Origin: Branchiostoma floridae
Taxonomy: Eukaryota > Chordata > Leptocardii > Amphioxiformes > Branchiostomatidae
Assembly (NCBI RefSeq): GCF_000003815.2
Contig: NC_049982.1
Coordinates: forward strand, 6,865,283-6,929,282
Direction: 5' to 3'
Length of the DNA stretch: 64,000 nucleotides
Below, piece after piece: positions 1-53,406 of the stretch. A program made the position numbers and the translations under genes. Each line of letters begins with the position of its first letter. Within the stretch, counting starts at the first letter, position 1. The notes below the pieces were generated by a model. It was not told the origin of the DNA and searched no databases. It saw nothing but the letters and a program-made list of their open reading frames with translations.

Positions 1-18
1 ATGGCCTGATTTCCACAG

Positions 19-3000
19 AAATGACAGTATCGGCGGTGTGGTACAAGGAGATCTCTACCTGTCCGCTGCAGGAGGCCCGTACTATGTGTCCGGTGACATC
101 ATCATCCTCCCAAACAGTTCTCTCTCCATCGAGGCTGGGACAACACTTGATTTCGCGCAGGACATAGGTTTGTTCGTTCAAGGAAGATTGGTTGCAAATG
201 GCAGCGAGCAAGAAAGAGTACAGTTTCTGTTAGCTTGGAAAGACAACGACAGTGCGCCGTCTGGCAGGGAGGACTTCATCAAGCTTGTTGGCGGCAATCA
301 CACGAGGGAGGGGTATGTACATGTCTTTGCGAATGGATCTTGGCAGACCGTTTGCCGGGATGATGACTGGGTTTGGACAGATTCTGAGAGAGTTTGTCAA
401 CATCTTGGCTACAGGGGAATAGAGTCGGACGTCGTTGACAGGCGACCATTTTCTGAATCCACATGGCAACGCAACTTGACATGCGGCGACCTCTTCGAGG
501 AAGGGGAAACGCGATGCGTGCATCCCATCAACACCACAGAATGTGCATCCGTTTTGTATGTGGTTTGCGAGTATACCCCCTGGTTCGGATTACACTTTAC
601 ACTAACAGCAGCTCCCAGCATCCTGCGGAACGTCGACGTGTCCGGGAGCAGAACCGGACTGCACGTTGACTTCCACAGCCACAGGATGTCCGACATCCGC
701 GTGCGTGACGTACAGGATGACGGTATCATTATTCGACACCATGATGCTCTGCGGAATCCCTCCGTATGTGACGACTGTAGTCTTGAAAGCATCGGAGGCC
801 ACGGCATACAGGTCTATTCCGCGCCTTCGTTAATCAGAAAGACTTCCATTGAGAACGTCGTAGGAAACGGCATAGACATTAGGGGCATCACACCAGAAGA
901 CGTCATGAAGGCAACATCACTGATACCACTTTCTGCCAGACACTCTATTTGCTCCGGTAATAAAGCCTTGGATCCAGGCGAACGTCTTTTAGTAGAGCTG
1001 ACAGGAGTGGGTAGCTGCGTGGAGTTTTTGTCCACAGTGCCAGGCCACATCATTGCGGTACAGGCCATGTTTAAGACTAGCAATACAATGCTGTCGCTGA
1101 GCGTTCACGATGGTGGTTCAGCTGAATCAGGACAGGTATGGACCATTGATGACGAGGAGTCAGAAGTAATTGTTTCAAGCGGCCAGACCATTGCCCTTGT
1201 GTATGAAGCCTCGGGACCAGAAAACAAGACATATCTTCTGGTAGAGGCATTAAAAGATGACGACAGGCAACATCCAGCTGGTGACAACGCTAACATAAAA
1301 CGGGGCATCGTTATTGAAGACGCAACCATATATAAAGCCGAAATAGGAGTTAACCTCGACCAATCAGAGAAAAGTAACCTACGCCACCTCCAAATTACGA
1401 ATTCATCCGCAATGTACTGTAATCAGGGCATGAAACTGCTGAATATTTCGGCGAATATCATCGTAAAAGATAGCAGTTTGAAAGACAATAAGGAAACCGG
1501 CATCATAGTGGAAGAAGTAACACGAAACAAAGCATCCATCAGTTTGAATGCATCGGAAATCTCTTGGAATGGGGGAGCGGGACTGGAAATGACATTTTCA
1601 GATTCGACGTACGAAAAAGAAATCGTGGTCTCTGGATGTCGATTCGAAAGGAATGCGCTTGTGGGTAGTGAGGGGAATCCTGCAGTAAGTCTCACGGGAC
1701 ACGCTGCCAAATGGGACATAAGAGGAAATACGTTTGACAACAATCCAATAGCTGCGGTGGAAATAGCTGGAGCGATGTCGATGTGGAACTTTGAACAAAA
1801 CTGGTTCATTCGTAACCGCGTTCAGAGGTATCTAATCAGTACCGCCGATGTGTCATTTTCTACAGTCACCTTCGAGGGAAATGCCTTTACTGACAATCAG
1901 GTAGAAAACGGTGGTTTGATGGATATAAGTGGGTTTGAAAACAACTGCACGATTTCATCAAACGTGTTCCAGAACAACTCGGGGTGGTATGTTATCGACA
2001 TCGCAGTTTCTGGACATGGAGTCGATGGTACAATCTTACCCTTCGTCACAGTGTCTGATAACCGTCTGGAGGGCAATGTAATCAACCAGTCACATGAGTC
2101 TTTCGGCTGTGCTATTTTTGTTGGACTGATGCAGAACGTCCCAATATTCCAGTTCAACCGTCTGCATAACCCTCATTTTACCTGGGAAGTGTGCATGGAC
2201 AGAGCCGATACGTTATCTGACAACGTGTTTGAGGCACCGCTGAACTGGTGGGGAAGTGAAGACCCAACTACAATCCGGGACAGGATTTTCGACTTTGACG
2301 ATTGGAACGATCACCCTCTTGTCGACTTTAGTCCTTTCCTGATATCTGCAGAGGGGAATATGTCACGCCATTGGGTCAGGATCTCAGAAATAGGAGGACG
2401 GATCTTTGGCAACATGACACTTACGATTGATGGCAGTCCGTATCTTGTATCCGAGGATATCACAGTTCTCCCGAATGCAACATTAAACATCCATCCCGGC
2501 GTCGAACTGCAATTTGCTCCAAACATAGGAATATTGGTAGAAGGATCATTACAAGCCATGGGAGAGGAAGATAACAAAATAGTTATGACATCAGGTTCTC
2601 AGCATCAGAGGATACCTCCAGGCATAACAGCGGACAGGTTTTCCGGAATACGCCTTGCCAATGGTGCTAATCCATTCGAGGGAAGAGTGGAGATATTTGT
2701 TAATGGACAATGGGGAACTGTCTGTCATGATTATTGGGGACCATCTGACGCCACTGTGGCTTGCAGACAACTTGGATTTGGCCCAGTGGTAGATTACTGG
2801 CATCGCTTTGGTGGTGGATCAGGTCCCATATGGTTGGATAACGTCAACTGCAATGGGAATGAGTTTGATCTGCTTTCATGTAGGTCTAGAGGGATAGGGT
2901 CCCACAACTGTGATCACAATGATGACATAGGTATCAAATGTGGTCGGCAAAGAACAGCTTTATTCGCAAGAGACGACCACTGGGGCAACATTCGTGTCCA

Positions 3001-3719
3001 AACCACACACACAGAGTCACCGAGAGATGTACCAAGCTCCGTATTGCAGTATGTCACAATTTCTGGGGCAGGCATGTTGCATGGGATCGAGGTTCCGGCA
3101 ATACAAACCATTGGTAATGTCATAACGCTGCATCACGTAAACGTGTACAACTGTAGCTCACATGGTATCGAACTGGTGTCACCATCAGAATCAGCAGATT
3201 ACAACACTGTCAATGTGAACATGACGTCATCGACCACAGCGATGAAATTGGTGGAGTATAACAAAGATGTAGTATTGGAGAACATAGAGGCCACAGGAGG
3301 CAAGCATGGTATCCAGTTCAAGTCTCTTTGGGATTATAGTGTGACAACTCAGTTCCTGGAGACAAGTTCAGACATCTTTGTTGAAATTTGTGACAAAACC
3401 CCGACGGCGTATGTGACCTCTTCGACGATGATTTTCCACCGTAGCTCGTATCTGAACGGCTTTGCTAGGTCAGTCCACTGTAGTGTGATTATAAAAGCTC
3501 GGAGGAACCGTAGAATTCACATGAGACTGGACATATCATCGGTTAAGACAGGAAGTCGACTCAGCCTCCACCATGGGACATACAATGGAAATACAATCTC
3601 GCACTACGACAATGCACAAACATACGAGCTGACATCCTCCTCAGACACTGTTCGGATGGTGATGAGCGGACGTATCTATTTCACCTGCCAAGCTACAGTA
3701 GTTTCAAGTAACAGAACAG
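19..3719 (+). CDS. bark: Exon 1 in window: beta-helix unit 1 with SRCR domain, start of unit 2 with second SRCR
   Basis: This is a single 3.7-kb open exon, with acceptor TTCCACAG before 19 and donor CAG|GTAAGG after 3719. It opens with the unit start [11 protein letters not shown] followed by a [20 protein letters not shown]-type strand-turn. SRCR 1 lies at about 278-566 ([25 protein letters not shown], paired Cys). Long runs of short 'N.F..N' beta-helix rungs follow, then [16 protein letters not shown] near 2243. Unit 2 starts near 2410 ([19 protein letters not shown]). SRCR 2 lies at about 2644-2940 ([37 protein letters not shown]). Numerous N-glycosylation sequons support an extracellular position. 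The reading frame is already open at the left edge, so the protein starts upstream of the window. Confidence 0.93.
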
Positions 3720-6700
3720 GTAAGGCCGGCATAATTTTACCATTAGATATGAATTTTAGAATTTTCTGAACAAGATAATGCCCCATCTGCCCAACAAGAT
3801 ATTATTACAAAACTCATATAGCTTAGAGTTGTATATATATGTGTACCCATCTTTGTGCATAAGTGGGTTTAGTTTATGATAGTCTGATTGTCTTAGCATA
3901 TATTTCTTGACAAATTTAACAATTTTTTTTCTTCAAAATTGCTCACTCCGCAGTTCGGGTGAATCATGTCGTAGCTAACAGTGTGATTCAAGGAAACAGA
4001 GAGGGCGGACTTGTTTACACGGAACAGGGCACAGCAAGCACGCGTCTCCGCATCGTGAACACGGTCGTAAGGGACAACAGTGCTACGTCATCGTCAAGCC
4101 ATTCGGCAGCCATTTCAGTTCGTGCGAAGGATATCCTGATTGACATGTTCAACAATACCGTGCAAAACAACAACGGTGGGGTCAGAGTACAGCTAGATGG
4201 ACCGGAGACCAACAACACTGAAGAGACAAGAATGCATAAGATTACAAACAGTACATTCAACAACAACTACGGCTCAGACGTACTATATTTTGAACTTCTT
4301 CAGTCCCAAACGGACCATCTAATTCTGCAGGGAAACATAATGGAAAAGAACGAGGTGCCTAGTGCTGGCAGAGGCATAGTCACACTCACGGGAGTCCATA
4401 CAGATCTCACGCAGAATACGTTCGGAGGAAACAATGGCGAACATGTCCTCAAGTATCAAGATCGAGACAATGGAGATGGCCATAGAAGCATAAACATCAG
4501 TGCAAACGTTTTCGAAGATACTATCGAAGTAGACCGAATTGTGGACATATCCGGAAACAGTACAAGAGTGGTCTCCGAAGAAAATGTGTTCCAAACTAAC
4601 CAAGCCACTCTTATGCGGATCAGAGTTTCTGAGGGACAAGTCCAATTATTGGACAACGACTTTCACGGAAACAGAGGCCGGCTTCTTTCGTTTGAGCAAA
4701 GCAGTATGACTAGTGTCGAAATGATGGGAAACGACTTTCGTAACAACATTCGAGCTTCAAATTCTCTTTTAGACCTTCGTGGTGACAACTTCTACGCAAT
4801 AACGCAAAATCTACTGTCAAATAACAGCGCTCCTATCATGATCAGAGTCTCCACGGCATTTCTGCATGATAACAGCTCAACCACTACAGATGTGTCGATG
4901 ATTGGAAACATTCTAAAGGACAACATTTACTTCAATATTTACGACAACATCACCAGTCGTGACGTTGTAAGTTCATGCGCTGTTTTTTTCGCATCAGACC
5001 AAAATGTCCCAAGCTTTAGCAAGAACACACTGCAAAACCACAAGTTTCAGTATGAGCTATGCATGGATGCCTCTATTGCTTCCCTCAATAACATTCAGAA
5101 TGCATCTGAGAATTGGTGGGGAAGTCAAAATGAAGACAACATTCGGCTGAGAATCTTCGACTTTGATGACAGAAATGACCGCAGGATCGTTAACTTCAGT
5201 CCATATCGAGCCAGTGAGTACGGAAACAACAGTATGTACGCGGACATCAGCAGAGATGAGGGTAGTATCTTACATGGACGGATACACAGATCTCTTACAC
5301 TGGAGTCATCAAAGAGCCCATACATAGCCACAGGTGACGTCACCATCCTGCCAAATGTTACTCTCAGCATAGAGCCAGGTGTTGAGATCCGTGTCCAACA
5401 GGATGTTGGGATCCTTGTCTTGGGGAGTCTCCTGGCAAAGGGCACCAAAGAGGACAGGATAAGATTTTTACCACTCCATGAAATGGTCTCTTCCCCAGTA
5501 GCAAGTACATGGGAAGGGAACAACAGTAATTCGTGGGGAAACATCCGAATATCAGTTAGTAATTCTCAACTGACCATAGATCAGAAAATCACACTCGAAA
5601 ACGTAGATTTTTTACATGCTGGTCAGCTACACGGACAAGACGTTCCTAGTCTGCAAATTATCGGCATTCACTTAGAAATTAGTGACGTAACCATCGCAAA
5701 TTGCGTATCGGACGCGATTGAGGTTGTGTCTGCAAACCGTGTCAAGATAGATCGATTGTTTGCTGATAGCTGTAAGACTGCTGTCTCTCTCGCTGATATA
5801 TCGAGCGACACTTACATAGGCTCATCGACCATTAGCTCGAACGAGATCGGAATCAGCATGACAGAAGCTTTAACCTACAGAGAGGTCTACATACCTAAAG
5901 GCCATGTCAGTTCCTTTGGATTCGTCGACATCTGTGATCACCAAAACGTCATCGAAGTACAGACAAGTTTGAAACTTTATCACAACTCCCATTACTCCAC
6001 GCGTGTCTCATGTGTTAAAGTAGTCAGAACAAAACCAGAATTTCTTCTTCGCGCAAAGATATCGAGTCAGGACGTACAGCAAACAGTGACAATATATGAC
6101 GGGGAGTTGCCATCAAATGATAAGCGCCTTCTTCACCTAACGCCTTCTACAGTCATCAGCTCCATGACGAAGAAAGTAGTTTTCTCTGTATCCAACAAAT
6201 TGCTGATTGTGGCAAATGATCCGATAAACTTTCTAGTAGAAGTGAACGCCATCAGGAAGTCAGGTCAGTGTCATTTGTTTTCAGATTTTATTTCTAAGCC
6301 ACGCATGTAATTGTCAATTTTTAATTGTCCTGTAAGCGTTGCCGAGATATCATTTTTCTGCCCTACTCACCTACATGCCATCAAAACGATATTACGTAGA
6401 AACAGTACAATGATAGCACGTATCGTTTAAATCACATTTCCTGCAGCCTATATATCATTTGAACTGTTAGAGTAATAGCAAGATTGACCTATATGCAAAG
6501 AATGCGGCATTCAAAAATTCCGCGCAACAATACAATTTAAGTATCAGAACTTCACATATTTTGTAACCGTTTGATAGCAATATTTGTAAATGTCTTCTAT
6601 GCAATTTCTTTGTTCTGTCCAGAGAGCTGCAGTTTCGAGGATCTGTCATGCCCCTGGACAAATTCCCAAGACACGGCATGCCGGGAGGAGGATATAGAAC

Positions 6701-9700
6701 AGGACTGGAGACTGCGGACCCGTGAAGTCGACCATCAGTGGTTTTCTGGACCACCGACGGACAAAACATATGGTATGTTCCATTAAACCAAAAATGTTTA
6801 ACTTTGTTTATGTACAAATAACGCAGCAATCCGTCTGATTATATTTCACTACATACCGTATACATGGCAGTGAAATGTATTGTTCCTACATTTCTCTCCT
6901 AACCATGGGTATAGGAGTGAAATATTTTGTTATATGTCAACTGTGTGGCATGGGTGAATAGATATATTGCTATATTTCTTCACCCATGCCAAAAGTATGG
7001 GATGAAATAAATTTACATATCGTTTGTGTTTATGTTTCTTCTTCTATCTCCTCCTGTCAAATCTTCAAAGGTATTCATCTTGGACGATTGTGGGTCATAT
7101 TGCCTGAAATTCTGCACAAGGGAAAAGCGGACCAATGCCCCGAGATTTTTTTTCATGTTTTACCGGATGGGAGAAAACATATTGTTTTAACTGGGAGAGA
7201 TCGCGTGGCACAGCGGCAGCGTGTTTGCCTCGGGACTGAGAGGTCTCGAGTTCGAATCCGGCTGCGTGTCACCGATCTTGTGCCCTTGGGAAAGGCACTT
7301 TACACGGCTTTCCTCACTCTCCTCAGGTGAAAATGAGTACTTAGCTTCGGTCAGGGCCGTCCCTCGGATAGGACGTTAAGGTCCCGTGTCTGAGGAGAGC
7401 CATACGCGATGGCGCGGTGTGAGTGGTTCAAAAACCTACAGTCCCTTGGCCGCACCTGGGGCAATTACTGTCGTATTGAGGTCACCTGAGTGGCACCGAA
7501 TGGCAGCTCGCTCCAGACCCTTTCGATTCAGCTAAGCTGAGGTCAGAAAAAACTGGCATGTTAAAAATTCTTCTGGAATCAACCAATGAAAAAAAAGAGG
7601 TGCGGTCCCGCTTTCCAGCTTTCAGAATTCGGAATAGGAATAGCTTTGGCATTAGATGAAAGTGGTGTAACATGGAGACTTCCATTTTGAAAAAGGGTGT
7701 TTGGGGAGAGCCCATTGTTGTATGGGGGGGGGGTCAAATAAATATCTATTTTTGAGTGGAATGATGTTTGGATAGTCTATTTCTGCAAAATGCTGATATG
7801 GAACATCATTTTTTGTACCGTGAAGAAGACAGTGGAGTAAAATATTCTGTATTTGCTCGCGAGCAAATACTGGCATTCCTAGTCTTCTTCTATTTTCTTT
7901 CTGTACATGCATTCAACGGTAGCGTTGGCATACGGGAGCAAAATGAATGTTCATCGTTAGTCTGCAAGGATTTCTGTTCTGTATTACTATTATATACTTT
8001 AGCTGAGATTGTGTGCATACTCCCAGAGCTGTATTCAATACATAAGATAATCATCTGCCTCCATGATTTGAAACTTTCAGGACTTTTAAGTGCAACTTAT
8101 GTAGCTTTTATTAGATTTATAAGCTTGAAATGGACAAAGATAACAACAACAACAAAAATGAATTTCAGAGTCAGCTTACTACTCCCTCGGATGCTGGAGG
8201 GATTCATCAAGTAGTGCTATCCCGTCCCTCGAAGGGACAGACCCTCATCTCGATGGTCACTACAGCTCCAGAGAAAACCCCATACAGAAATGTCATGATG
8301 TCGTGGTGAGTCGAGGCTTCCCAGTGTTTGCCGTACGAAATGGCGGCCGATGCTTATCCGGACCTGACGCAGAGTCAACATACATGATGTATGGCCAGTC
8401 AACAGGATGTAGGTCAGACGGTGAAGGCGGCTCCTGGGCCAACCAAGTCTACAAGACTGTCAATGCCAATGGTGAGCATCACATGTACAGGTTTAATCAT
8501 GACACTGCTGCAATTTCATATCGGCCATTTGAATTTCTGGTCTTCAATCTTCATTCTCAGGCAGACATCATGACGCGCACTAAACTGCGATGAAAATACT
8601 TGCGTATACAATATACTCAAGAACTCAAGGATCATGTCATGACTTAGCAAATTACAAAGGAAATGTTAACTTAATTTTTTTTTAGACCAGTACCTGTACG
8701 CCGGGTCACACTACGTCGGCCATCCGCAATACCAGATCCACGCGACATTGGAGAGTGCTGCCGAACCCGCCTCTACCATCTGTGGACTGTCGTTCTACTA
8801 TTACCTCGGCTCAGACAGCTCTAACCACCCGGTCTCTCTCTCTGTAACCGCGGGAACTGAGTACAACAAATCTGACGTTTTCGCAGTCACTGCTATCAGA
8901 TCCAGCGACTGGGAGCTGGCAAACATCGTTATCAAAGAAACTAAAAATGTCTCCTCGGTTGCTATAATAGCAAGGTATTGGAAGGGCCAGAGAACAAGTG
9001 TATCCATCGATGAACTAAGGACATTCTACTGCAAACAGAGTAAGTTGTGCCCCTATTTTCTAACGCATTCAATTGCTGTATATTATATTAGGCTATTTGC
9101 CAAATCACAATGCCGTTGATACGTATGATCAAGAGAATGTCAATCTGTTTTTTTCAGGTATCAAATCTTCAGTGATAATGGAAACTGTCGTTGAGAACAA
9201 CAAAAAGAGCGGCATTGTGTACAAAGGTGAAGATGGCGCTGTGAAAGTAGAAAACTGTAAAATTGTTGGTAACGGCGTGGTGACTGCCGAAACAGAATCC
9301 ACGCATGCTGTTTCCCTGACACTTAAGAAGACTTCCCTCATCTTCAAGAACAATTACGTCGCACACAATCAAAACGGAGGCGTGAATGTGAACATATTGG
9401 CTGGAACTAATTGGCTCACCAAGTCACAAAATGTCACCCATTCACTTTTGAATAACTTCATTTCCTACAATAACCAATCAGAGGCGCTGGTCATTCAGGA
9501 CAACGATGAGGACGGGTATCTCTCCGTGCAACTGAGAGGTAACACAATCAGTCACAATTTTCCGGATGATACCAGAAACGTTATCGACATAGAAAATGCC
9601 GGATGTCGAGTTTATCGCAACACCCTATACAACAACACCGGTCTTCACGCTGTGAAATGGAGAAGGACTGTAAGTAACGAGACAAGTGTGTTCCGCGGTA

Positions 9701-27700: not shown

Positions 27701-30700
27701 CAGGAAAACGACTTCCGTGGCCCTGATGGCACCATCTACTCAAACCCGATAGACTTTGCAGAATCATGTAAGTTTTAGTTCACTGAACCTGTTTACTATA
27801 TATACGTTAGAAATGTAATTCTTTTGGAGTGGGTGATACTTGAGGTCAATGTCATAAAGATGCAATTGTGTACACTATGCAGGGCGGATCACTTCATCCC
27901 ATGACGCGGGAGGGCTCTTCGGAAGTTGGTCATGGAGCAGTTCAAACTTCCATGCCGATGACGTCATGGACATATCTTACACCAACCCGACATTCGTCCC
28001 CATATACTCCACCGACGATCTACCAGAACATCAAATATTGGTATGTTTAATACATATTTCAGTCAGACTTGTTTTTTATACCAATTTATTTGAGTATGAA
28101 GCCAATAATGTTTCATGAGACATCTAAATTGACTTTGATCAGAATATAGTGTGTTACATCTTCTTAAAGCAATGCAATCGAGGTTATTCACATTTTTGAT
28201 AAAGGATTTCTTGTTTACTCCTTGTTTCCTCGGTTGTTCGTGCATCACTTAGTTGGCGACAAATCTATGTGAGAGTCTGGGGATCAGTGGAAATCTTCTG
28301 GCAGGCTGTATCTATGACGTATCTGTGACCAACGACAGCAGCTTACTTGAGCAAGAATCATTAAAGACAGGTAAGACGACCTGTTATAGATTCGCATGAG
28401 AAAGAAGCTGAGAGTCCAAATAAGCACATTTATTCTACATCAATCTGCTTTTGTTCGTAATATAGCTGATACTTATCTATTTTTCAGGCTGCCCTTCAAA
28501 GTGTTCAGGAAAAGGCCGCTGTGTGAATTCCAGCTGTGAGTGTTTGGAAGGCTGGTCAGGGTCCGACTGCAGCAAAGGTTGTCCCTCCCTAGTTTTGTGT
28601 AGGCTCCGATTTACATCAGTGTGCTGACTTAGACTAAGACTCACAGCAATACCATAGTCACAGTATGACAGACGAATTTGATTTTAGATAAGCATGCTGG
28701 GTGTCGTCGATAACCTGGTTGGCATATGGCTCTCTTGAATCACGGGGCCTCCGGCTATATGTCCCATCCTGGAAGACGTCGCTAATGGATATTGTTTATA
28801 TTCATTTTCACCCGAGTGAACAAATAGGTGTAAAGTGCCTTACCAAGAGTACAGAATTCAATGTGCTTAGTGTGTGGGTAGCACAAAACCAAATGCATGC
28901 AATGTTAATAATTGGACTTGGATGTCTTTATATCATTGTTAGGATCTTGCGGGAAGTGCTCTTTCGGAAAATGCGTGTCTGGATTCTGCGAGTGTGTGCT
29001 TGGATGGGAAGGCGCAGCCTGCGATCAAAAGGGTAATATTTCACAACACATGCCTTCTCGATGCAGTATAAACAAGTACGTTGTATGGCAAAATGACCTA
29101 TTATGTATAACATAAAGACAAGAAGGAATATCTGCAATATCTGAAAGTCTGGTTTCATCCGAAATCTATCAATTATGGGAATGATATCGAGATAAAAATA
29201 CGAATTATTGGATGGAGTACGATTTTTCACGAATGCAGTCAATGAGTGAAGAAAATTAGTAAACCTCCTTTAAATAAATTCGGCACATTAAGTTTGGACT
29301 AGTAAGTTTGGTTGATCATTTTTCTGTTGTTTATGCATCAATCTCAGTGTAATATATATCAATAGAAAACTTGTGTAATTTCCTTTACTTTGATATTCTG
29401 TATGCCAAAAATTACGTGAAAAATAATTGATTGACTCATTGACACCCGCACCCAACAGGACGGTACAGTGTTGAATACAATGTTGGGAAATTTCGGTACA
29501 TGCAATTTTGTGACCCACTCACGAAAACCTGCCTGGTGCTCGTTCCATGAGTTTACAATCACAATGAGCTTGATGCTATAGGAAATGATGCACAAAGTTA
29601 ACGCTTTCTACTTATATATGATACGTACACATTGAAATTGAACAAAAACAACCGAAAGATGATAAACCAAACTTAGTTTTCCTTACTGAGTTTATATGCA
29701 GTATGAAAGCAATTTACAAAGATAACAATTTTTCAATTTTTCATTTAACAGCGACGTGCAACAATGTGAACAACTGCACCAGCCCAGCTAACGGAGCGTG
29801 TAGGACGACAGACGCCTGTCAATGTAATCCTGGTTTCATCGGTAAGTGTTTTTAAAATACCTCTAGAATGCATTGAGCAATAAACTACATGCAGCACAAA
29901 TACAGTTAAATCGTGTAATATACATGTAGCGTGAATTGATGATGATGATGACTGGTTTATTCAAACAACAATTCATATATACATGACCCAGATAGCAGCC
30001 CTAAGGCTGAATTGATAGGCACATTCACATTACAATTGGGATAAAATCTGTTAAAAATGTTTACAGCATGTCATCATTAAAAGAAGAATTTCACTGAATA
30101 ACGCCATTAAGCAATTAAATAAACTATTCATACAGAGTCATCGTTTAGCAAGGAAACCATATAGTTAATCGGACTTCTCTTGAAACGAGTAGTATTCGCT
30201 TTCAGAGTCTGGAGCCTGTTACTAGACCGAGTCTCTCTACCTGAGATCTCCCCACGGCATGGTGGGAGCCAGTTTCTGCAGATTGGGGATTTCCAGAGGG
30301 AGCTGGCATACGTTCTGCACAGTTCTTCTCGCGTCACACTATAGAGAATTACGATTGATCGGTGCTAATAATCATCATTCTCATTGTTGTCTTGTTCTTA
30401 ACGTCAATGTGTCATTCTCCTGTTCGGAAGGTATTGATTGCAGTATACAACCAACTTGCCTTGCCGTGGCCAACTGCTCCACGCGGGGGGTCTGTGTGGA
30501 CTGGGACACCTGTCTGTGTGATCACGGCTGGGGAGGGGAGAGCTGTTCCAAACCGACCTGCAAAGATCTGGACTATTGTTCAGGTAAGCCGTCTTTAACC
30601 ATTATTGTCAGAAGTGCATGCATTGTCAAAGCTTTGTGAAACTAACACGCTTAGTAATGTTGACAGAGAGGTGTATGTACCAAATGTTGGAATTTATGAT

Positions 30701-33700
30701 AATGATCATCTATATTTTCCTGTATCACTCATGGTTCTTGTCTGATTTTAGGTCATGGCACATGTGTTGAGTATGATATATGTGAGTGTAACCGGGGCTG
30801 GACGGGCGTTAGCTGTGCGCTTCCCGACTGTAGCGGCGTGAGCGACTGTTCCGGGCGGGGTGAATGTGTAGGACCGGACGTCTGTGAGTGTTACAGCGGG
30901 TTCAGGGGACAGAATTGCAGCCTGACGTTGAACTGCACCGAGTTGGATGACTGTAATGGACAGGGACTCTGCGTCATCACACCTGGAGACGGACAGTCGA
31001 ATGTTTCATGCAGGTAATTGAAGATAATGAAAGGGTAGATATTGGAGTTTTCCGTTACCAGTTATTCTCACCTGCTGACGTTTCGATATCGATGTCTTTC
31101 AGACATATGCATCTTTCTCAAAGCTTCTAACTGGAGTTCTGCTTCCCGCCGCTTTATGTAGCGCTTTGTATTGGTAGCGCTTTTGCGGCGAGAACACTAT
31201 CCCAAAAGTGGCTAAGTTTGTTTACTCCCTCGTCGTCCCCATTCATCACTTTTGTTTATTACAACGAAAAGGACATACAGTACAAAGTGGTGCCGCACTC
31301 AAGCATACTGTCTTATATTAACGGAACCACTGGACAAAACATGATACATGATGACAGAAAATATGTAAGTGGGAGCGTCTGATGTACATGAACAGTGTCG
31401 GACAATTGAATTATAGTAAGAGAAAATAACGGCTGACATTGGTTATTGTGGTGAAAGTACTTGTAAAAGGTACCTGTTGAAATGATGCAATACAAATTAA
31501 TGCAACGTATCCGGTGTATTAAAGAAGCAGTCCGGATATTGAAGTCAACCCCAGCGAGGGAGGATACAAACTTAATATTTACTACATATAGCGGCGAGAA
31601 GCAAAACTCCAGTTAGAAGCTTGAGGAAGATGTCTGACAGACATGGAAACGTCAGCAACTGATCGTTTGAAAGAAAACTCAGATATCCCATGATCTGCCA
31701 ACCTGATAAAATGATTTTATCTTATTTTGTCCATATTAATAATGATTTGTCGATATTCATTATTCAAACATCCCGTACTTTAGGTGTTTCATAGGTTTTA
31801 CCGGGGCCAACTGCAGTGACGTCTCGTGCCCCGATGTTAACGAGTGTTCCGGGAACGGACAGTGTGTGGAGCCGAACCTCTGCTCGTGTGACGCCGGTTT
31901 CACAGGGGCAAGCTGCGCCAATTTCTCGTGTAAAGCAATGGACTTCTGCTCAGGTATACATTCTTTCTTTGTAAGATATCTTTGTAACGATAGTTTAACC
32001 TTAAGTCGTAAATTTTGACATGAGTGTGACTTCTTAATAAGACTTAAAAATATTGGGCATACATGTAATCATTTAGCGTCACGTTGATCTGCTACTTACT
32101 ACAAATGACAGGAAACTAATTTGAAGGATTTTTCAAATGATTCATGCCAGACGTACAAATCAATGTTTGGTCCAAATACACAGATTTGTTTTTTTTCTTC
32201 TTTCGCCCAGGTCATGGGGAATGTGTCAGCTATGATGAGTGCCGATGTTACGAATCCTGGAGCGGACCGTCCTGCTCGATTGCAAACTGCAGTGGTGTCA
32301 ACGACTGCTCTTCAAATGGTGTATGCCTCTTGCCAAACACGTGTGAATGCACTAGCGGGTATGACGGGCTATCCTGCGACCAGTTTAGCGCTCCCAATGA
32401 AAATGCCCCAGTGTTTACAAACGAGACATTCGCCGTCAGTATTCGTGAGAATGTACCGATCGGAACAAAGGTTACCACAGTTTCTGCAGACGATGCCGAT
32501 ACAGGACGTAACGGCTGCATCACGTATTCTATTTCACCCGGTAGTTCAGCGGAGATGTTCCTTGTTGATAGTGAGACAGGTGAAATTTTCACACTCACTA
32601 CTATTGATTACGAAACACTGACTGAGAAGACAATATCTCTTGTTGTTATTGCAAGAGACAAAGGTGTTCCTTCCATGTCTGCCTCAGCGACCGTTGCGGT
32701 GACTGTGCTGGACATGAACGATAACTGTCCGACATTCCAAGACGACGCCACAACCATCCAGCGCACGCTTCGCCCCGGTCAGTCATTTAACATCACGGCT
32801 ACTGACAGAGATAGCGGCGTGAACGGCAAAGTTACGTTCTCAATACTAGGAGAGGAAAACAGCCGTCGATATTCTGTTAACGAGTCAACCGGTACGGTAA
32901 CCTTTAGTGATGGCATTACGCCGGGGAAGTACACATTCGTTATTGTGGCTAGTGATCAAGCAGTCATCCCCTGTTCATCCCGTATCACCGTAACTGTGAT
33001 TGTTGTGGATAGCATGCCCGAACCAGAACCGGTAATGTCATCTACAGGTGTAAACGCACCGAGTTTCACAGTGACGGATACTAGTACCTTGTTCAATTCT
33101 GCTCATACATCTTCCACGTCATTCGATGCATCAACGCAGCTACTTTACCCGTCAATACCTCAAACATCAACGCGCCATCCCACGTTCTCCACCCCGACAA
33201 TACCATCTCCAGGCCGTTTAACGTCGACGCCCCTGGCACCATCACAAGTGACCTCCAAGCCACAGCAGATTTCTTCAACCGAAGTACAACAGCCTGTCAC
33301 ACCATCTCTAATGCCTGTACCTGGTCAAGCCGCCTGTTCATCCCCTGTCACAGTAACTGTGACAGCTGTGGACAGTACATGCACAACAATACCCGAACCG
33401 ACACTCTTGTCGACTACGACAGATGGAGACCCATCAGGCATCACCGCATCACAGACGACCATCACGTCAACGCCACAGCCCACAGCTGCAACTTCACCAG
33501 CAAACACCGTAGAACAACCAGATCAAAGCGTCACAACAACAACAACAACATTCCTTCTGAGGAATGTCGGCATCGAAATGATTCTGGACATGGTATGGGA
33601 TGAAGATCTTGCTTCTCCCACGTCGGAGAAGCACAGGAGGCTTTCATCAGACATATCAACTGCAGTAAGTTTAACAATTTCAGACACAACAGTTTTGGAA

Positions 33701-34794
33701 ATGAAAAAATCATCTTGTCACATATATGTAATTTCTATTTCTGTCAGAAAATATTACGATGTTGTAACAACTTGACTTGTACTTTTTTCAGATGGCGTCC
33801 GTTTTTAGGAACGAATCGAGATTTGTTGGTGTTGTCGTCGCAGGGTTCAGGTAAACATAATGCATTGTTCTCCTTAAAACAAAACCTTTACAGACATCAG
33901 AAGTTTACTTCAATTCACATATTTCTATAGCTACAACATGCTACAATCGAGATTGTTTTCATGCTCAGGGAAGGGAGCACGGTCGCCGATTTGCAGCTAC
34001 TTCATAATGGCGGGGAAGGTTTTGACGACGTCGCCACGAGTATGCTAAGGCAAGCTTCAACAAACGGGCTGCAAGTGGGAGGGACGAGAGTGACGGGGCT
34101 TGACCAGAAAGGTATGTTAGCCTCTGATGTTGTACCATATCATTCGAATTCAGTACACAGGTTTATATGTTTATCAGTACGTATACAGGTAACGTTTCCT
34201 GAATACTCTGATGCCTCAGTACCATATTGTAAGTGAACTTTCACGAAATGGTAACATAACGGTATGTGTAAAACACAATGTCAATCTTCACTTTCCTATA
34301 AATCCTGAGTTGTGCCGTTAAACAGGATTCTATGTTGTGCCATCACATATCATATATACGAATGAGCAGAAAATTGTTCAAACAATTATCCAGTGAAAGA
34401 ATTTGGCTTTCTGTATGCAGTATAATGACGTCATGAAATAATAAATGCCTCGATTCATTCACAGAATACTTGTCCCTGATACAAACTGAGCATTATGTGC
34501 GATACGTTTATGAAAAGTAATTTTCAGTTCACTGACTTAAAATAATTTTTCTGTTATTATCATTTTCATTTTCTTACAGTAAACGAGATTCCAGGAACTT
34601 CACAGGGGTTTGATTTCCAGTGGCTTTATATATTGGGCGTTATCCTAGGGATCTTTCTGATAGCGACTACTATCATAGTGATACAGCAGAATAGAAAGCA
34701 GAAAAAGAAACAAAGGGCAACAAGCAGGGTGTCGCGGCGACGGCAACAACGTTACACGGCGACGCATGGTTCTTATATGGAAAGTGCTTTTTAG
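19..34794 (+). CDS. bark: Bark beetle-like giant type I membrane protein, about 42 exons, 5' end outside window
   Basis: The exons join with consistent codon phase from 19 to the stop at 34792-34794, except between 15486 and 17430. Exon coordinates are given in the module entries below. The coding sum is about 14.6 kb (about 4,870 residues) without the signal peptide. Drosophila Bark beetle/Anakonda is a single-pass protein with three beta-helix units, SRCR domains and a C-type lectin that organises tricellular and septate junctions; the order seen here up to about 13370 is the same. The extra C-terminal half (VWD, ten EGF, cadherins, SEA, membrane span) is not what I know from the fly protein. 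Alternatives are a lineage-specific fusion, or two neighbouring genes whose boundary lies near the assembly gap. The predicted role is an extracellular adhesion or junction receptor. I am confident of the family and exon chain, and less so of single-gene continuity and of each exon edge. Confidence 0.75.
3954..6263 (+). CDS. bark: Exon 2: rest of beta-helix unit 2 and start of unit 3
   Basis: Acceptor CACTCCGCAG precedes 3954 and donor TCAG|GTCAGT follows 6263. The translation ([17 protein letters not shown]...) is a chain of beta-helix rungs rich in N and G ('[12 protein letters not shown]', 'GNDFRNN'). It carries the unit-terminal motif [20 protein letters not shown] near 5110, directly comparable with the one in exon 1. 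A third unit opens near 5293 ([19 protein letters not shown], then [12 protein letters not shown]), but no SRCR domain follows where units 1 and 2 have one. The exon ends in phase 1. The fold assignment rests on repeat pattern and family knowledge, not on a profile search. Confidence 0.93.
6623..9039 (+). CDS. bark: Exons 3-5 (6623-6772, 8235-8471, 8686-9039): MAM-like domain interrupted by a small secreted module
   Basis: All three exons begin and end in phase 1. Exon 3 reads [20 protein letters not shown]...DQDW-like, the classic start of a MAM domain (CxFE..LC.W). Exon 5 ([12 protein letters not shown]... [14 protein letters not shown] ... [11 protein letters not shown]) fits the second half. 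Between them, exon 4 continues [13 protein letters not shown] and then adds a 60-odd-residue piece ([41 protein letters not shown]). That piece resembles a short module I associate with invertebrate secreted and lectin-like proteins. The start of exon 4 at 8235 was chosen by codon phase and the weak acceptor CCCTCGAAG; it is less certain than the others. Confidence 0.75.
6975..7890. mobile_element. Repeat element A (intron 3), with a SINE nested in it
   Basis: The left part (ATATTTCTTCACCCATGCC, later CTCCTGTCAAATCTTCAAA) matches the start of element B at about 19215-19400. The right part near 7830-7890 (GTATTTGCTCGCGAGCAAAT, then TTCCTAGTCTTCTTCT) matches the right end of B near 21085-21140. 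No coding capacity is seen. The boundaries are approximate. Confidence 0.5.
7195..7500 (+). mobile_element. tRNA-derived SINE
   Basis: A pol III-type promoter is visible: box A TGGCACAGCGG at 7206-7216 and box B GAGTTCGAATCC at 7248-7259. A non-tRNA body follows, containing GTGCCCTTGGGAAAGGCACT and then AGGACGTTAAGGTCCCGTG, a sequence style common in deuterostome SINEs. Flanking stems do not form a functional tRNA acceptor. The 3' end is uncertain. Confidence 0.75.
9158..9991 (+). CDS. bark: Exon 6: end of beta-helix unit 3
   Basis: Acceptor TTTTTTTCAG precedes 9158 and donor TTCAG|GTTCGT follows 9991, phase 1 on both sides. The product starts [20 protein letters not shown] and continues with beta-helix rungs. 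It finishes with [20 protein letters not shown] near 9860, the third copy of the NWWG unit-end motif in this gene. This confirms three beta-helix units, as in fly Bark. Confidence 0.92.
10142..11014 (+). CDS. bark: Exons 7-9 (10142-10236, 10344-10541, 10888-11014): C-type-lectin-like domain
   Basis: The translation begins [19 protein letters not shown] followed by [20 protein letters not shown]. This is the canonical CTLD start (C..GW......CY.F....+W.+A...C...G..LA.+). The end, [11 protein letters not shown], matches the terminal 'FICE' motif. The middle ([20 protein letters not shown]) holds the WIG position, but the usual WND and EPN/QPD calcium- and sugar-binding motifs are not seen. Binding of sugar in the classical way is therefore doubtful. 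A minus-strand tRNA-type SINE head lies in the intron before exon 9. Confidence 0.85.
10775..10845 (-). mobile_element. tRNA-like SINE head, minus strand
   Basis: Read on the minus strand it gives CTAGTGGTTAGAGTACTCGC, a tRNA D-arm/box A, followed by a degenerate box B (GGTTACAACCTCGC). It is a fragment in the intron before exon 9. Confidence 0.55.
11182..11360 (+). CDS. bark: Exon 10: two tenascin-type EGF repeats
   Basis: The exon reads [19 protein letters not shown] and then [19 protein letters not shown], followed by [19 protein letters not shown]. The spacing C-x(3)-C-x(n)-G.C-x-C..G..G..C is that of EGF-like repeats; the second is completed by GRAC in exon 11. Entry is phase 1 and exit phase 0. 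Acceptor is TTCTTCACAG, donor CAG|GTACGT. Confidence 0.85.
11494..13370 (+). CDS. bark: Exons 11-13 (11494-11697, 11818-11919, 13079-13370): PSI-like Cys-rich modules and an unrecognised tail
   Basis: Exon 11 carries a clear PSI (plexin-semaphorin-integrin) signature, [20 protein letters not shown] followed by SSQQCLPG. Exons 12 and 13 give a second, weaker one ([38 protein letters not shown]). Fly Bark also has a PSI domain after its lectin. The remainder of exon 13 ([19 protein letters not shown] ... [14 protein letters not shown]) is not recognised. Phase is 0 into exon 13 and 1 out of it. The intron before exon 13 contains the Penelope-like insertion, which ends only about 30 bases from the exon-13 acceptor. 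Confidence 0.85.
12034..13049 (-). mobile_element. 5'-truncated Penelope-like retroelement with GIY-YIG domain
   Basis: On the minus strand from about 13045 down to a stop at 12356-12358 lies an open frame. It contains [16 protein letters not shown], followed by [20 protein letters not shown] and [17 protein letters not shown]. This is the GIY-YIG endonuclease end of Penelope-like elements. The upstream part ([32 protein letters not shown]) is the end of the reverse-transcriptase region; the polymerase core itself is missing. A perfect 15-base direct repeat, ACTATGATAAAGTTT, lies at 12019-12033 and 13035-13049 and is a likely target-site duplication. A poly-G run lies at about 12371. Confidence 0.9.
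12081..12120 (-). ncRNA. Hammerhead-ribozyme-like core in Penelope-like element tail
   Basis: The minus strand reads CTGACGA (12109-12115), a 6-bp stem GGATAG/CTATCC, then GAAAC (12085-12089). Hammerhead cores are CUGANGA - stem II - GAAA, and Penelope-like elements are known to carry hammerheads. One extra A between CTGACGA and the stem departs from the strict consensus. Helix III would be only three base pairs, and helix I is not obvious. Confidence 0.45.
13411..14640 (+). mobile_element. Degraded CR1/Jockey-type LINE reverse transcriptase fragment
   Basis: Frame-broken remnants read VPQGS (13419-13433), [20 protein letters not shown] (catalytic FADD altered, 13510-13521), then [20 protein letters not shown] and [14 protein letters not shown] (13750-13920). 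These are reverse-transcriptase motifs B to E in order. Several stops and frameshifts make it dead. A TA-rich tract of ATT repeats at about 14566-14615 and AATAAATAAA mark its 3' end. Confidence 0.85.
14814..15486 (+). CDS. bark: Exons 14-15 (14814-15008, 15243-15486): unrecognised module, first copy
   Basis: The phases fit exon 13 (G|GT, then G|GA) and exon 15 ends in phase 2 (CCA AG|GTATAG). Exon 14 encodes [20 protein letters not shown] followed by acidic sequence. Exon 15 encodes [37 protein letters not shown] and [14 protein letters not shown]. The latter resembles exons 16-17 in layout: a Cys, an Asp-Asn pair, N..SL/W..F..L.VG, then SG with a hydrophobic run. I do not recognise the family. 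The next exon in phase is not visible before the assembly gap. Confidence 0.7.
15585..15684. other. Assembly gap of 100 N
   Basis: A run of exactly 100 N is the usual placeholder for a gap of unknown length. It lies in an intron of the giant gene, between exons that do not join in phase, so coding sequence may be missing here. Confidence 0.99.
15822..15900 (+). other. Candidate extra exon with hydrophobic stretch in one frame
   Basis: A good acceptor (CATGTTACAG) and a possible donor (CTGAG|GTGCGC) bracket 79 bases. In the frame continuing from exon 15 it reads [18 protein letters not shown]-, which is not convincing. In another frame it reads [20 protein letters not shown], which would make a strong membrane segment. 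Neither reading joins the CAG acceptor of exon 16 in phase. It may be a real exon preceded by one lost in the gap, an alternative terminal exon, or chance (the ATC run is a microsatellite). Confidence 0.25.
16019..17414. mobile_element. Tigger/pogo-like non-autonomous DNA transposon, about 1.4 kb
   Basis: The ends are perfect 12-base inverted copies, CAGTCAAACCTG and CAGGTTTGACTG, flanked on both sides by TA (16017-16018 and 17415-17416), the target duplication of Tc1/mariner/pogo elements. Subterminal sequences also mirror each other (ACCGACCACC... and ...AAGACCACC). No transposase reading frame is visible. A hypothetical long frame at 17306-17641 mixes the element's right end with host exon 16. 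The right end stops 15 bases before that exon. Confidence 0.85.
17430..18034 (+). CDS. bark: Exons 16-17 (17430-17572, 17849-18034): unrecognised module, second copy, with furin-type site
   Basis: Exon 16 reads [19 protein letters not shown] then [19 protein letters not shown] and SGPVLSKV. Exon 17 reads [19 protein letters not shown] and ends [13 protein letters not shown]. The pattern echoes exon 15 and suggests a duplicated module. RKRR at 17960-17971 fits the furin consensus RxK/RR. The acceptor AATACCACAG at 17420-17429 demands phase 1, which exon 15 does not supply. An alternative AAAAG acceptor one codon later would give phase 0. The family is unknown. Confidence 0.7.
18190..18300. mobile_element. 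Short MITE-like inverted repeat
   Basis: ATTCTCCGAGCAGAGGTTGG near 18201 is mirrored by TGAACCTCTGCTTGAGAATA near 18274-18293. An inner perfect hairpin, GCCGGGATTTTTTCCCGGC, lies at about 18244-18262. It is in the intron before exon 18. Confidence 0.55.
18419..22976 (+). CDS. bark: Exons 18-22 (18419-18585, 18830-18977, 21176-21271, 22007-22178, 22727-22976): unrecognised beta-rich region
   Basis: Five exons join in phase. Typical stretches are [58 protein letters not shown] and [16 protein letters not shown]. They alternate hydrophobic and small or polar residues, as expected for extended beta structure. Cysteines are scarce until the pair in [10 protein letters not shown] near 22820. I recognise no family. 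Exon 19 was placed by codon phase with the weak acceptor GCGAAAAG before 18830. Intron 19 (18978-21175) holds repeat element B. Confidence 0.65.
19215..21150. mobile_element. Repeat element B filling intron 19
   Basis: The left end (ATATTTCAGCCATACC, about 19220) is matched in inverse by GGTATGGCTGAAATAT near 21070-21086. This suggests terminal inverted repeats of an element close to 1.9 kb. Internal parts match element A in intron 3. A (TTTC)n microsatellite lies at about 19263-19300. No coding sequence was recognised inside. Confidence 0.45.
21272..22006. other. Intron 20, nothing recognised
   Basis: A 102-codon frame at 21458-21766 has no recognisable motif and no splice logic with the neighbouring exons. 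It may be old transposon sequence. No repeat was identified. Confidence 0.4.
23180..25693 (+). CDS. bark: Exons 23-26 (23180-23312, 23712-23846, 24782-24912, 25542-25693): Cys-x-Cys-rich repeats
   Basis: The peptide is made of short repeats with paired and alternating cysteines and acidic turns: [86 protein letters not shown]. Each repeat is close to 'C-x-C-x-DG-x(6-10)-DGSCP'. The exons join in phase. The tail [15 protein letters not shown] leads into the next EGF. The pattern looks like a disulfide-rich rod, and metal binding cannot be excluded. I have no firm family name. Confidence 0.8.
23406..23468. repeat. Intronic long hairpin
   Basis: The outer arms GGTTCCTAT and ATAGGAACC enclose an inner stem CGAATGAG/CTCATTCG around a short loop. 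It may be a MITE remnant or a structured RNA. Direct copies of AAAAGCTACGGT follow near 23530-23560. Confidence 0.4.
23847..24781. other. Intron 24, nothing recognised
   Basis: AT-rich intron between two Cys-rich exons. The open frames on both strands here lack known motifs. No inverted repeat was seen. Confidence 0.4.
25185..25327. repeat. Five short palindromes in a minisatellite-like array (intron 25)
   Basis: GGGCGATCGCCC lies at 25185-25196, GGCGGCCGCC at 25211-25220, and GGGCGATTGCCC at 25241-25252, 25279-25290 and 25316-25327. They are separated by 14-26 bases of partly similar sequence (AGGACTTGG, CAGGAC). Each unit is a near-perfect palindrome and could form a GC hairpin. Confidence 0.75.
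25859..28370 (+). CDS. bark: Exons 27-32 (25859-26008, 26219-26663, 27085-27227, 27573-27767, 27883-28040, 28253-28370): EGF plus von Willebrand D domain, interrupted by a MITE
   Basis: Exon 27 holds an EGF ([16 protein letters not shown]...[12 protein letters not shown]) and the VWD start [11 protein letters not shown]. Exon 28 continues [18 protein letters not shown] and, after the insertion, [19 protein letters not shown]. Exon 30 carries the VWD end motif [15 protein letters not shown]. Exon 32 ([19 protein letters not shown]) is the Cys-rich tail seen in SUSD2/Muc4-type VWD proteins. All junctions are in phase. The coding sequence of exon 28 is split by an inverted-repeat element at 26324-26575. 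The codon register is the same on both sides, but reading through it meets TGA at 26407-26409. Confidence 0.88.
26324..26575. mobile_element. MITE with 53-bp perfect terminal inverted repeats, inside VWD exon 28
   Basis: Bases 26324-26376 and 26523-26575 are exact reverse complements, starting TAAAGGCCCCCTCTCACTTG. The centre is about 146 bases of AT-rich sequence with no open frame. VWD coding sequence is recognisable directly on both sides, so the insertion is in the exon. TA (or TTTA) at each edge is the likely target duplication. Reading through it adds a few dozen foreign residues before TGA at 26407-26409. Confidence 0.85.
28488..31953 (+). CDS. bark: Exons 33-38 (28488-28577, 28943-29032, 29752-29841, 30431-30583, 30752-31013, 31784-31953): tandem tenascin-type EGF repeats
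   Basis: Eight complete EGF repeats and the first part of a ninth are encoded here, for example [39 protein letters not shown] and [19 protein letters not shown]. Exons 33, 34 and 35 are each exactly 90 nt, phase 1-1, one EGF per exon, the mark of exon-shuffled domains. Later exons carry one to three repeats. With exon 39 the array totals ten repeats after the VWD domain. The repeats are short, with six Cys, and resemble tenascin EGFs without the hydroxylation-type calcium motif. Introns carry a LINE tail (29940-30400) and an inverted Penelope-like pair (31060-31665). Confidence 0.92.
29033..29751. other. Intron 34, nothing recognised
   Basis: AT-rich intron between two 90-nt EGF exons. There are no recognisable motifs or repeats, only short random frames. 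Confidence 0.4.
29940..30400 (-). mobile_element. 3' end of a LINE (CR1/L2-like), minus strand
   Basis: On the minus strand a frame ends [20 protein letters not shown] and [27 protein letters not shown]. This is the typical C-terminus of CR1/L2-like ORF2 proteins (..RFK.S...YM..LLN). It is followed by a 3' UTR ending in ATAAACCAGTCATCATCATC, a simple-repeat tail. Confidence 0.7.
31060..31665. mobile_element. Inverted pair of Penelope-like termini (intron 37)
   Basis: About 85 bases from 31071 (CTGACGTTTCGATATCGATG ... CTTCTAACTGGAGTTCTGCT) are repeated in inverse at about 31575-31660 (AACTCCAGTTAGAAGCTTGA ... GAAACGTCAGCAAC). The arms carry TTGAGGA - ATGTC/GACAT stem - GAAACGTC, similar to the hammerhead-like tail of the element at 12034-13049. 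The 430 bases between encode nothing recognisable. Confidence 0.6.
32211..33664 (+). CDS. bark: Exon 39: last EGF repeats, two cadherin repeats, Ser/Thr/Pro stalk, start of SEA domain
   Basis: This is one 1,454-nt open exon. It begins [19 protein letters not shown] and a further EGF ending at CDQF. Cadherin 1 starts near 32401 ([19 protein letters not shown]) with the calcium motifs DADTGRNG and DMNDNCP. Cadherin 2 (CPTFQDD ... [14 protein letters not shown], ...ASDQ) lacks some of the usual calcium residues. Positions of about 33010-33540 encode a Ser/Thr/Pro-rich mucin-like stalk. The end ([20 protein letters not shown], then YRRL-like [11 protein letters not shown]) is the first part of a SEA domain. 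Donor GCA|GTAAGT is phase 0. Confidence 0.92.
33792..34111 (+). CDS. bark: Exons 40-41 (33792-33850, 33969-34111): SEA domain core
   Basis: Exon 40 gives [19 protein letters not shown] and exon 41 gives [19 protein letters not shown] followed by [10 protein letters not shown]. Together they match the SEA core, F......GV.V..FR.GS.V.D..L. The EG-STVAD turn lies where mucin-type SEA domains self-cleave (G-SVVV), so autoproteolysis is possible but the site is not canonical. The internal ATG at 33792 is a codon inside the chain, not a start. The position just outside the membrane is usual for SEA. Confidence 0.85.
34580..34794 (+). CDS. bark: Exon 42: membrane span, basic cytoplasmic tail, C-terminal ESAF, stop
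   Basis: After [15 protein letters not shown] comes [20 protein letters not shown], a clear single membrane segment. A tail of about 36 residues follows, very rich in K, R and Q ([20 protein letters not shown]). The last four residues ESAF fit the class I PDZ-ligand pattern S/T-x-hydrophobic. The stop TAG is at 34792-34794. The positive-inside rule makes the protein type I, with all preceding domains outside the cell. Confidence 0.92.
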
Positions 34795-53260: not shown

Positions 53261-53332
53261 TTACTTGAAGCTTTGATAATAGTAGTATATCAGTCTGTTG
53301 CCTTGTGCCCACAACGTATTGTTCTAGTCGCA

Positions 53333-53406
53333 ACTAGAACTAGAACTAGAACTAGAACTAGAACTAGAACTAGAACTAGAACTAGAACTAGAACTAGAAC
53401 TAGAAC
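53333..53406. repeat. (ACTAGA)n microsatellite
   Basis: About twelve perfect copies of a 6-base unit (ACTAGA). It creates a meaningless Arg-Thr open frame. Confidence 0.97.

Follow-up and report, generated by a model that had tools for sequence, protein, structure and literature searches.

A stretch of DNA on contig C4 of the lancelet genome raises the question of whether a Bark beetle-like receptor and a mucin- and cadherin-like membrane protein, whose exons follow one another there on the same strand, are products of one gene or of two neighbors. The window, i.e., the whole 64,000-nucleotide stretch that was analyzed (C4:6865283-6929282 of a 513-Mb genome in 431 contigs), contains one plus-strand exon chain that spans from its start to a stop codon at 34794. 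The best explanation is a single gene, among at least nine of its sort in the genome, whose product is a very large Bark beetle/Anakonda-like type I membrane protein.

Extent and domain layout of the gene

The gene model was obtained with a home-made splice-aware search and then corrected by hand and with the C4 paralogue (EGF exon 11182-11360 and exon 18875-18977); domains were checked by Pfam on pieces of the spliced model. Most of the gene is inside the window. A preliminary description had placed the gene start at position 19, which was not borne out: the remainder begins ~12.5 kb upstream, where a start exon with a signal-peptide-like MAPQPRLLVATCLLMFICGTGVAAS (C4:6852755, assigned by hydropathy and position) precedes the SRCR domain of a first unit (Pfam, 1.2e-18) that closes with NYWG instead of NWWG. 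Splice phases, counted by hand, are compatible from this start exon into the window. Once the upstream exons are added, the precursor is estimated at ~5,650 aa (~792 aa upstream of the window and ~4,860 aa within it), which replaces the ~4,900 residues originally proposed. The 28 exon pieces modelled between 2 and 26008, among which a transposon-split exon counts as two, are stop-free when joined, as are those from 27085 to the final stop, and a 100-N assembly gap (15585-15684) falls inside an intron. At a threshold of 0.01, Pfam matched none of ten further frames that the model leaves out (eight in 38-59 kb and two in 12-14 kb, on both strands).

The first half of the protein comprises four SRCR/beta-helix units, a MAM domain with a WSC-like insert, a CTLD, EGFs, and two PSI-like modules. 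Its features within the window are as follows:

2..3719, plus strand: exon continuing from upstream, with the end of unit 1, unit 2, and the start of unit 3 (open frame, Pfam, motifs)
about 272-571, plus strand: SRCR of unit 2 (Pfam)
2243-2254, plus strand: NWWG end of unit 2 (motif)
about 2648-2950, plus strand: SRCR at the start of unit 3 (Pfam)
3954..6263, plus strand: exon with the rest of unit 3 and the start of unit 4 (Pfam, paralogue)
5111-5122, plus strand: NWWG end of unit 3 (motif)
6623..6772, plus strand: exon, N-terminal half of MAM (Pfam MAM; 90% in the paralogue)
8235..8471, plus strand: WSC-like module, a phase-1 symmetrical exon between the MAM halves (78% in the paralogue)
8686..9039, plus strand: exon, C-terminal half of MAM (Pfam, paralogue)
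9158..9991, plus strand: exon, beta-helix end of unit 4, with NWWG at 9865-9876 (motif, paralogue)
10142..11014, plus strand: CTLD, exons 10142-10236, 10344-10541, and 10888-11014 (Lectin_C, PDB)
11182..11360, plus strand: exon, two teneurin-type EGF modules (EGF_Teneurin 8.8e-7, two stretches; 95% in the paralogue)
11494..11919, plus strand: two PSI-like Cys-rich modules, exons 11494-11697 and 11818-11919 (Pfam, by eye)

The three NWWG-ended units described earlier hold for the window (2243, 5111, and 9865) but not for the whole gene, which has four units with the upstream NYWG unit included. The reported SRCR, CTLD, and PSI content of this half was recovered. Exon 2..3719, which is 75% identical to the C4 paralogue, contains two SRCR matches (9.7e-40) and Beta_helix (4.7e-15), with a further Beta_helix match in the following exon under the Pfam cut-off (2.7e-5). 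Lectin_C (7e-5) is narrowly above its cut-off, at 24 bits vs 22.6, and CTLDs are among the PDB matches to the lectin-like region. PSI was matched in the first module only and below cut-off (0.002); the PSI-like exon pair was recognized by eye in four further genomic stretches. The WSC match of exon 8235..8471 (1e-3) is likewise below cut-off, and MAM scores 2.1e-14 with this exon skipped vs 1.4e-10 with it kept. The earlier domain list is correct as far as it goes but incomplete, as MAM and the WSC-like module are also present and the gene is multicopy. Unit 2 displays a CUB-like insert by eye; Pfam, applied to three segments of the gene, did not report CUB at E ≤ 1, and its CUB match in the C1 copy (0.1) is below cut-off.

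In the middle of the protein, three repeats of an unnamed module are followed by an unnamed beta-rich domain and Cys-rich units:

13079..15008, plus strand: unnamed module A, exons 13079-13370 and 14814-15008 (relatives on C1, C4, C11, C12, and C13)
15243..15456, plus strand: unnamed module B, one exon (alignment, profile comparison)
16009..16018, plus strand: first 10 bases of the module C exon, cut off by a transposon (acceptor score 6.0)
17417..17572, plus strand: rest of the module C exon (77% in the paralogue)
17849..18034, plus strand: exon with the end of module C and a linker with a furin-type site (motif)
18419..22976, plus strand: unnamed beta-rich domain, exons 18419-18585, 18875-18977, 21176-21271, 22007-22178, and 22727-22976

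In an alignment of 17 hand-chosen sequences, modules A, B, and C line up as repeats of a single module in which a Cys, a Gly, and a Val are invariant, and profile comparison pairs A with B (hhalign 90%, E 1.7e-6) and B with C (75%, E 2.6e-5), both being single-pair E-values. Pfam returned no family at E ≤ 1 for the 580-aa unnamed stretch, submitted with exon 18875-18977 left out, and for the 17 module sequences it returned three families with one member each, too weak to use (best E 0.062). A PDB profile search with the modules gave four matches, all at E 0.097 or worse, and predicting the structure of module B from three window rows gave a poor model (mean pLDDT 48.6). The beta-rich domain was without PDB matches at E ≤ 1; its paired cysteines are kept in the C11 copy, at 27% identity over pieces that were put together by eye. 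With no convincing match in either database, this domain and the three module repeats are new targets for structure work.

The last part contains a VWD, ten EGFs, two cadherins, a Ser/Thr-rich stretch, a SEA domain, and one membrane span:

23180..26008, plus strand: Cys-rich units, one EGF, and the VWD start, exons 23180-23312, 23712-23846, 24782-24912, 25542-25693, and 25859-26008 (Pfam, paralogue)
25978..27767, plus strand: VWD, at the end of exon 25859-26008, then 26219-26324 + 26575-26663, 27085-27227, and 27573-27767 (Pfam VWD 6.2e-8; motif at 25978-26010)
27883..28370, plus strand: post-VWD module, exons 27883-28040 and 28253-28370 (paralogue, genome matches)
28488..32390, plus strand: ten EGF modules, counted by eye (EGF_TEN 1.1e-60)
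32396..33020, plus strand: two cadherin repeats (Pfam Cadherin 2.3e-34, two stretches)
33021..33550, plus strand: Ser/Thr/Pro-rich mucin-like stretch (sequence)
33551..34111, plus strand: SEA, the end of exon 32211-33664 + 33792-33850 + 33969-34111 (Pfam SEA 7.8e-9)
34580..34794, plus strand: last exon, with the membrane span, a basic cytoplasmic tail ending MESAF, and the stop (acceptor 5.1)

The Pfam scores of VWD, EGFs, cadherin, and SEA support the earlier reading of a chain that continues through these domains, and the single membrane span expected at its end is located at 34621-34683 (peak hydropathy 2.76). EGF_Teneurin covers 11 stretches in a piece that also includes the EGF preceding the VWD. 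Within the ~180 aa Ser/Thr-rich stretch TRF identified no tandem arrays; T-rich repeats are visible in the C11 copy.

Transposon insertions and relatives within the genome

Two coding exons of the window copy are interrupted by transposons:

16019..17414, no strand assigned: DNA transposon in the module C exon, 1,396 bp (12-bp inverted ends, TA duplication)
26325..26574, no strand assigned: MITE-like element in the VWD exon, 250 bp (perfect 52-bp inverted ends)

The first 170 bases of the larger insert occur at at least 40 genomic places with 95-100% identity, its own included and ten identical, and the smaller insert at at least 40 near-full places with 97-100% identity, again with its own included. 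Both families look young, and with two young transposons in coding exons the allele of the window copy may therefore be impaired. For the smaller insert, the exact target duplication is ambiguous and the exon frame is not joinable with certainty. A dying gene or broken allele, with the full protein provided by relatives only, is a plausible reading toward which we lean somewhat less than half the way. The larger transposon enters the module C exon after 10 bp and the MITE splits the VWD exon, both from young families, and the corresponding exons of the C4 paralogue, that of the VWD included, are uninterrupted. However, the remaining modelled exons are open and constrained, the larger insert holds a donor (1.1) and an acceptor (1.7) that would allow most of it to be spliced out in frame with ~30 extra residues, and other chromosomes may be insert-free.

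To place the gene among its relatives, the genome was searched with four protein parts at E 0.001, a threshold that a very divergent head-only gene might escape. The search retrieved 28 matches to the head, 30 to modules A-C together with the beginning of the domain after them, 23 to the beta-rich/Cys-rich part, and 42 to the VWD. When we group the listed matches by place, the head occurs at nine loci, counting the window gene: one on C1, two on C4, four on C11, and two on C13. All nine display module A, a Cys-rich unit, and a VWD downstream in identical order and strand; in one C13 copy the VWD halves are ~14 kb apart. Trees of head pieces and of tail pieces share one common unrooted topology for seven of the nine copies; for the two excluded copies no tail sequence was available. 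At two loci, on C12 and at C13:10471673, module A is present and the head search gave no match, the latter locus having a Cys-rich unit and VWD, and C13:6463214 has a module C match only. Beyond the C4 pair and the C11:4.53-Mb, C1, and C12 copies, the loci are known from matched places and short flanks.

The C4 paralogue (~C4:7.21-7.25 Mb) matches 42 of the 43 exon pieces in the same order, and because the pieces are ordered alike, a chance origin of the exon chain is excluded. The membrane-span exon has no counterpart within the paralogue DNA compared, where a CTLD-like frame follows SEA. In the C11:4.53-Mb copy, the reading runs from beta-helix units through a frame resembling a CTLD (by eye), EGF, PSI, and modules to Cys-rich units, VWD, EGFs, three cadherins, the T-rich repeats, SEA, and a probable membrane span AWYSNPVYILLVCVGAAVVITSIVVLVICC, chosen by eye. 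SEA scores 6.1e-7 there, on two frames that were combined by eye. The C1 copy was followed from its beta-helix units, accompanied by frames taken by eye for MAM and CTLD, as far as the post-VWD module. In the C12 copy, PSI and modules are present. The preceding 13 kb yielded no head match at E 1 and contain a frame that resembles NHL and a putative signal-peptide exon, both by eye.

Constraint was compared by Nei-Gojobori between the window gene and its C4 paralogue. Ka/Ks pairs are 0.110/0.378 from the head to the CTLD (2,297 codons), 0.058/0.275 for EGF-PSI-modules (441 codons), 0.109/0.317 for the linker, beta-rich domain, and Cys-rich units (498 codons), 0.069/0.336 for VWD-EGF (586 codons), and 0.163/0.476 for cadherin-SEA (538 codons). 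Given these values across five segments, all parts are under purifying selection and are alike in age.

The weakest stretch of the chain is 15456 to 17572, where an assembly gap lies in the intron and the larger insert interrupts the following exon after its first 10 bp. The paralogue supports the acceptor at 16009, whose exon resumes past the transposon, and the disputed module C exon is unbroken in the C4 paralogue, with the same frame, splice phase, and length. A hydrophobic frame at ~15.82-15.90 kb was considered as a separate Bark end near 15.8 kb and rejected: it has no paralogue counterpart, the two introns being unalignable, and its acceptor phase misfits the preceding exon unless the gap hides an exon.

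It is scarcely credible that a Bark gene ending near 12-16 kb is merely the neighbor of a separate VWD-EGF-cadherin-SEA gene from near 17 kb, for although the gap at 15585-15684 could conceal an exon, the hydrophobic frame offers an end, headless tails occur on C12 and C13, and four signal-peptide-like ATGs in 11-34 kb (19245, 24951, 28893, and 28902) are candidate starts, the tail is kept in order and strand at 9/9 head loci, the head and tail trees are concordant, the border exon matches the paralogue in splice phase, the hydrophobic frame is absent from the paralogue, and modules A, B, and C, repeats of each other, straddle the supposed border. The single-gene proposal of the preliminary description is sustained by the same loci and trees, and a check for relatives split into two genes found the tail parts downstream, in like order and strand, at each of the nine head loci retrieved.

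Predicted cleavage and proposed function

A furin-type site, RKRR/A, is located at 17960-17974, directly after module C, where it separates the Bark-like portion from the portion with the VWD. All five copies examined display such a motif after module C, with those of C1 and C11 placed by eye: STRKRR/A in the window gene and the C4 paralogue, STRRRR/A in C12, STKRKKR/A in C1, and TRRRRR/E in C11. The C12 place is backed by alignment (E 0.006), while the C1 and C11 motifs sit in frames outside any alignment. Further R-rich motifs in nearby C11 and C12 frames were judged non-coding. The SEA domain of MUC1 cleaves itself at a G/S motif, and its halves stay together. In the window gene the spliced SEA frame reads GFREGSTV and the C11 frame GSINV; the C4 paralogue is without the G/S motif, its frame being GRTVSD. 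Both the furin and SEA cuts are predictions from sequence, and the conserved furin-type site may make the mature molecule two chains.

We infer that the product, structural part included, is probably a one-gene, Bark-like receptor on a long stalk that acts in cell contact or at a barrier. A furin-type protease would cut the precursor at RKRR/A after the third module into two chains, a head that stops near residue 3,960 and a tail anchored in the membrane, and SEA may cut itself at G/S and stay associated, as in MUC1. Like the ectodomain of fly Bark, the head would bind where epithelial cells meet, and the VWD-EGF-cadherin-SEA part could act as a stalk that lifts it across the glycocalyx or a barrier. 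Two cuts would permit the head to be held non-covalently or released. Against this explanation, the membrane span of fly Bark sits after the CTLD, and function need not transfer; the headless loci on C12 and at C13:10471673 also imply that the tail can exist alone. The two inserts in coding exons, the departure of the C4 paralogue from the G/S motif, the unmatched membrane-span exon, the C1 and C11 furin motifs placed by eye, and the missing CUB match likewise weigh against it. Even more speculative, and improbable as it stands, is an expanded set of two-chain Bark receptors in which furin-cut heads with homophilic or ligand-binding activity and cadherin-mucin stalks would pair at epithelial vertices, the copies giving cells distinct contact identities while the barrier is sealed.

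The contact/barrier receptor is favored, with an immune receptor next; the likelihoods given to the alternatives overlap. An innate immune or scavenger receptor family, in which SRCR and CTLD would bind microbes, copies would have multiplied for recognition, and the VWD-mucin stalk would anchor the protein in mucus, is possible though unlikely. Nine or more copies, some near each other, and the presence of SRCR and CTLD domains are consistent with it, as is crab SpBark, whose CTLD binds bacteria and LPS and is tied by its authors to phagocytosis (PMC6716108). However, the C4 pair is strongly constrained throughout, with no fast-changing binding part at such resolution. Doubtful to a greater degree is a reading in which furin turns the head into a secreted matrix protein and the tail serves as a separate membrane mucin, with a common precursor and no joint action. 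The furin-type site between the parts in 5/5 copies examined, and the headless C12 copy that retains modules and site, point in this direction, whereas the co-occurrence of head and tail at 9/9 head loci speaks against it, as does the fact that fly Bark is a transmembrane protein (PMC11698045).

Comparison with known systems

No recognizable description of the full domain order was found in the open-access literature. Like Mesh, a smooth septate-junction protein, the lancelet protein is a membrane protein with a VWD, but Mesh has an otherwise different domain set, and the likeness is one of resemblance only. VWDE (von Willebrand factor D and EGF domain protein) shares a VWD followed by a run of EGFs and is not known to have the Bark head, cadherins, or SEA. 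The tail resembles the membrane mucins MUC4 and MUC1 in its VWD, EGF, Ser/Thr-rich stretch, SEA, and one span; unlike them, the lancelet gene possesses teneurin-type EGFs, cadherin repeats, and a Bark head, and Pfam reported no NIDO or AMOP match in it.

Bark/Anakonda is a marker of three-cell corners in insect epithelia, and to our knowledge little is established about three-cell-corner proteins outside insects. Fly Aka/Bark combines SRCR, CUB, beta-helix, and CTLD domains with a TM and forms homophilic contacts at three-cell corners via its ectodomain (PMC11698045), and crab SpBark has three SRCRs and a CTLD, with microbe binding mostly via the latter (PMC6716108). The lancelet gene shares with these Drosophila and crab proteins repeated SRCR and beta-helix units, a CTLD, a predicted signal peptide, and a type I membrane topology, the units numbering four vs three in fly Bark (PMC11698045, PMC13042304); its CUB-like inserts are recognized by eye only. 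For the fly and crab forms the sources list SRCR, (CUB), beta-helix, CTLD, and TM only, whereas the lancelet gene extends beyond Bark with MAM, EGF, PSI, three unnamed modules, the furin-type site, VWD, ten EGFs, cadherins, and SEA. In Bark the TM comes after the CTLD, and no other ectodomain is listed between them; here ~2,100 residues separate the CTLD from the membrane span. This architecture bars an "ordinary Bark" but not kinship of the head, which is identified as Bark-like by domain order only.

If the two are true relatives, a chordate-side lineage retained the head, fused it to a mucin/cadherin stalk, and multiplied the gene, and the loci named here would allow three-cell corners and barriers to be studied beyond insects. 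The conserved cut site provides a handle on whether head and stalk work as one molecule. The gene thus presents a familiar junction protein on a far larger scale.

An exon within the MAM domain

The plus-strand Bark-type receptor gene of the window carries a phase-1 symmetrical exon between the two halves of its MAM domain:

8235-8471, WSC-like exon

In Pfam searches, the MAM match improved when this exon was omitted. The exon is conserved (78%) in the close paralogue on the same chromosome, at about C4:7.21-7.25 Mb, and none was seen by eye in the C1 copy.

Transposons, retroelements and tandem repeats

Coding exons of the gene are interrupted at two places by inserts of young DNA transposons. 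The LINE-like fragments, named by eye, are intronic; positions refer to the window or to the upstream DNA holding the early part of the gene (L009, own numbering):

window 16019-17414, DNA-transposon insert 1
window 26325-26574, DNA-transposon insert 2
window 13.7-14.3 kb, LINE-like reverse-transcriptase fragments
L009 2.9-4.3 kb, LINE-like reverse-transcriptase fragments
L009 about 2780-5960, short-repeat array, by eye
window 52770-53261, tandem array, 164-bp unit x3
window 53332-53406, tandem array, AACTAG x12.5

Insert 1 contains splice sites through which it could act as a new in-frame intron. The LINE-like piece at 13719-13991 gave no Pfam match at 0.01. By eye, the large intron following the first exon holds a long, interrupted array of the short repeat CCCAGCGCGGCTAAAAGCCTCCCGT and its variants.

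Relatives elsewhere in the genome

In the C4 paralogue, a CTLD-like frame noted by eye directly follows the SEA domain (paralogue positions 31191-32013, L032/L035), occupying the place of the membrane span in the window gene; the window holds no relative of it at E 1. This frame is either an extra domain or part of the next gene.

The relative at C12:17267535-17299434 lacks the Bark-like head; it retains PSI, the unnamed repeated modules and a furin-type site, with no match to the Cys-rich unit (E<=0.01) or to a VWD of the window-gene type (E<=0.001). It possibly includes a signal-peptide exon.

At C6:15469235-15504898, the VWD search showed near-identical VWD domains following one another in a long series, many about 1.9 kb apart.
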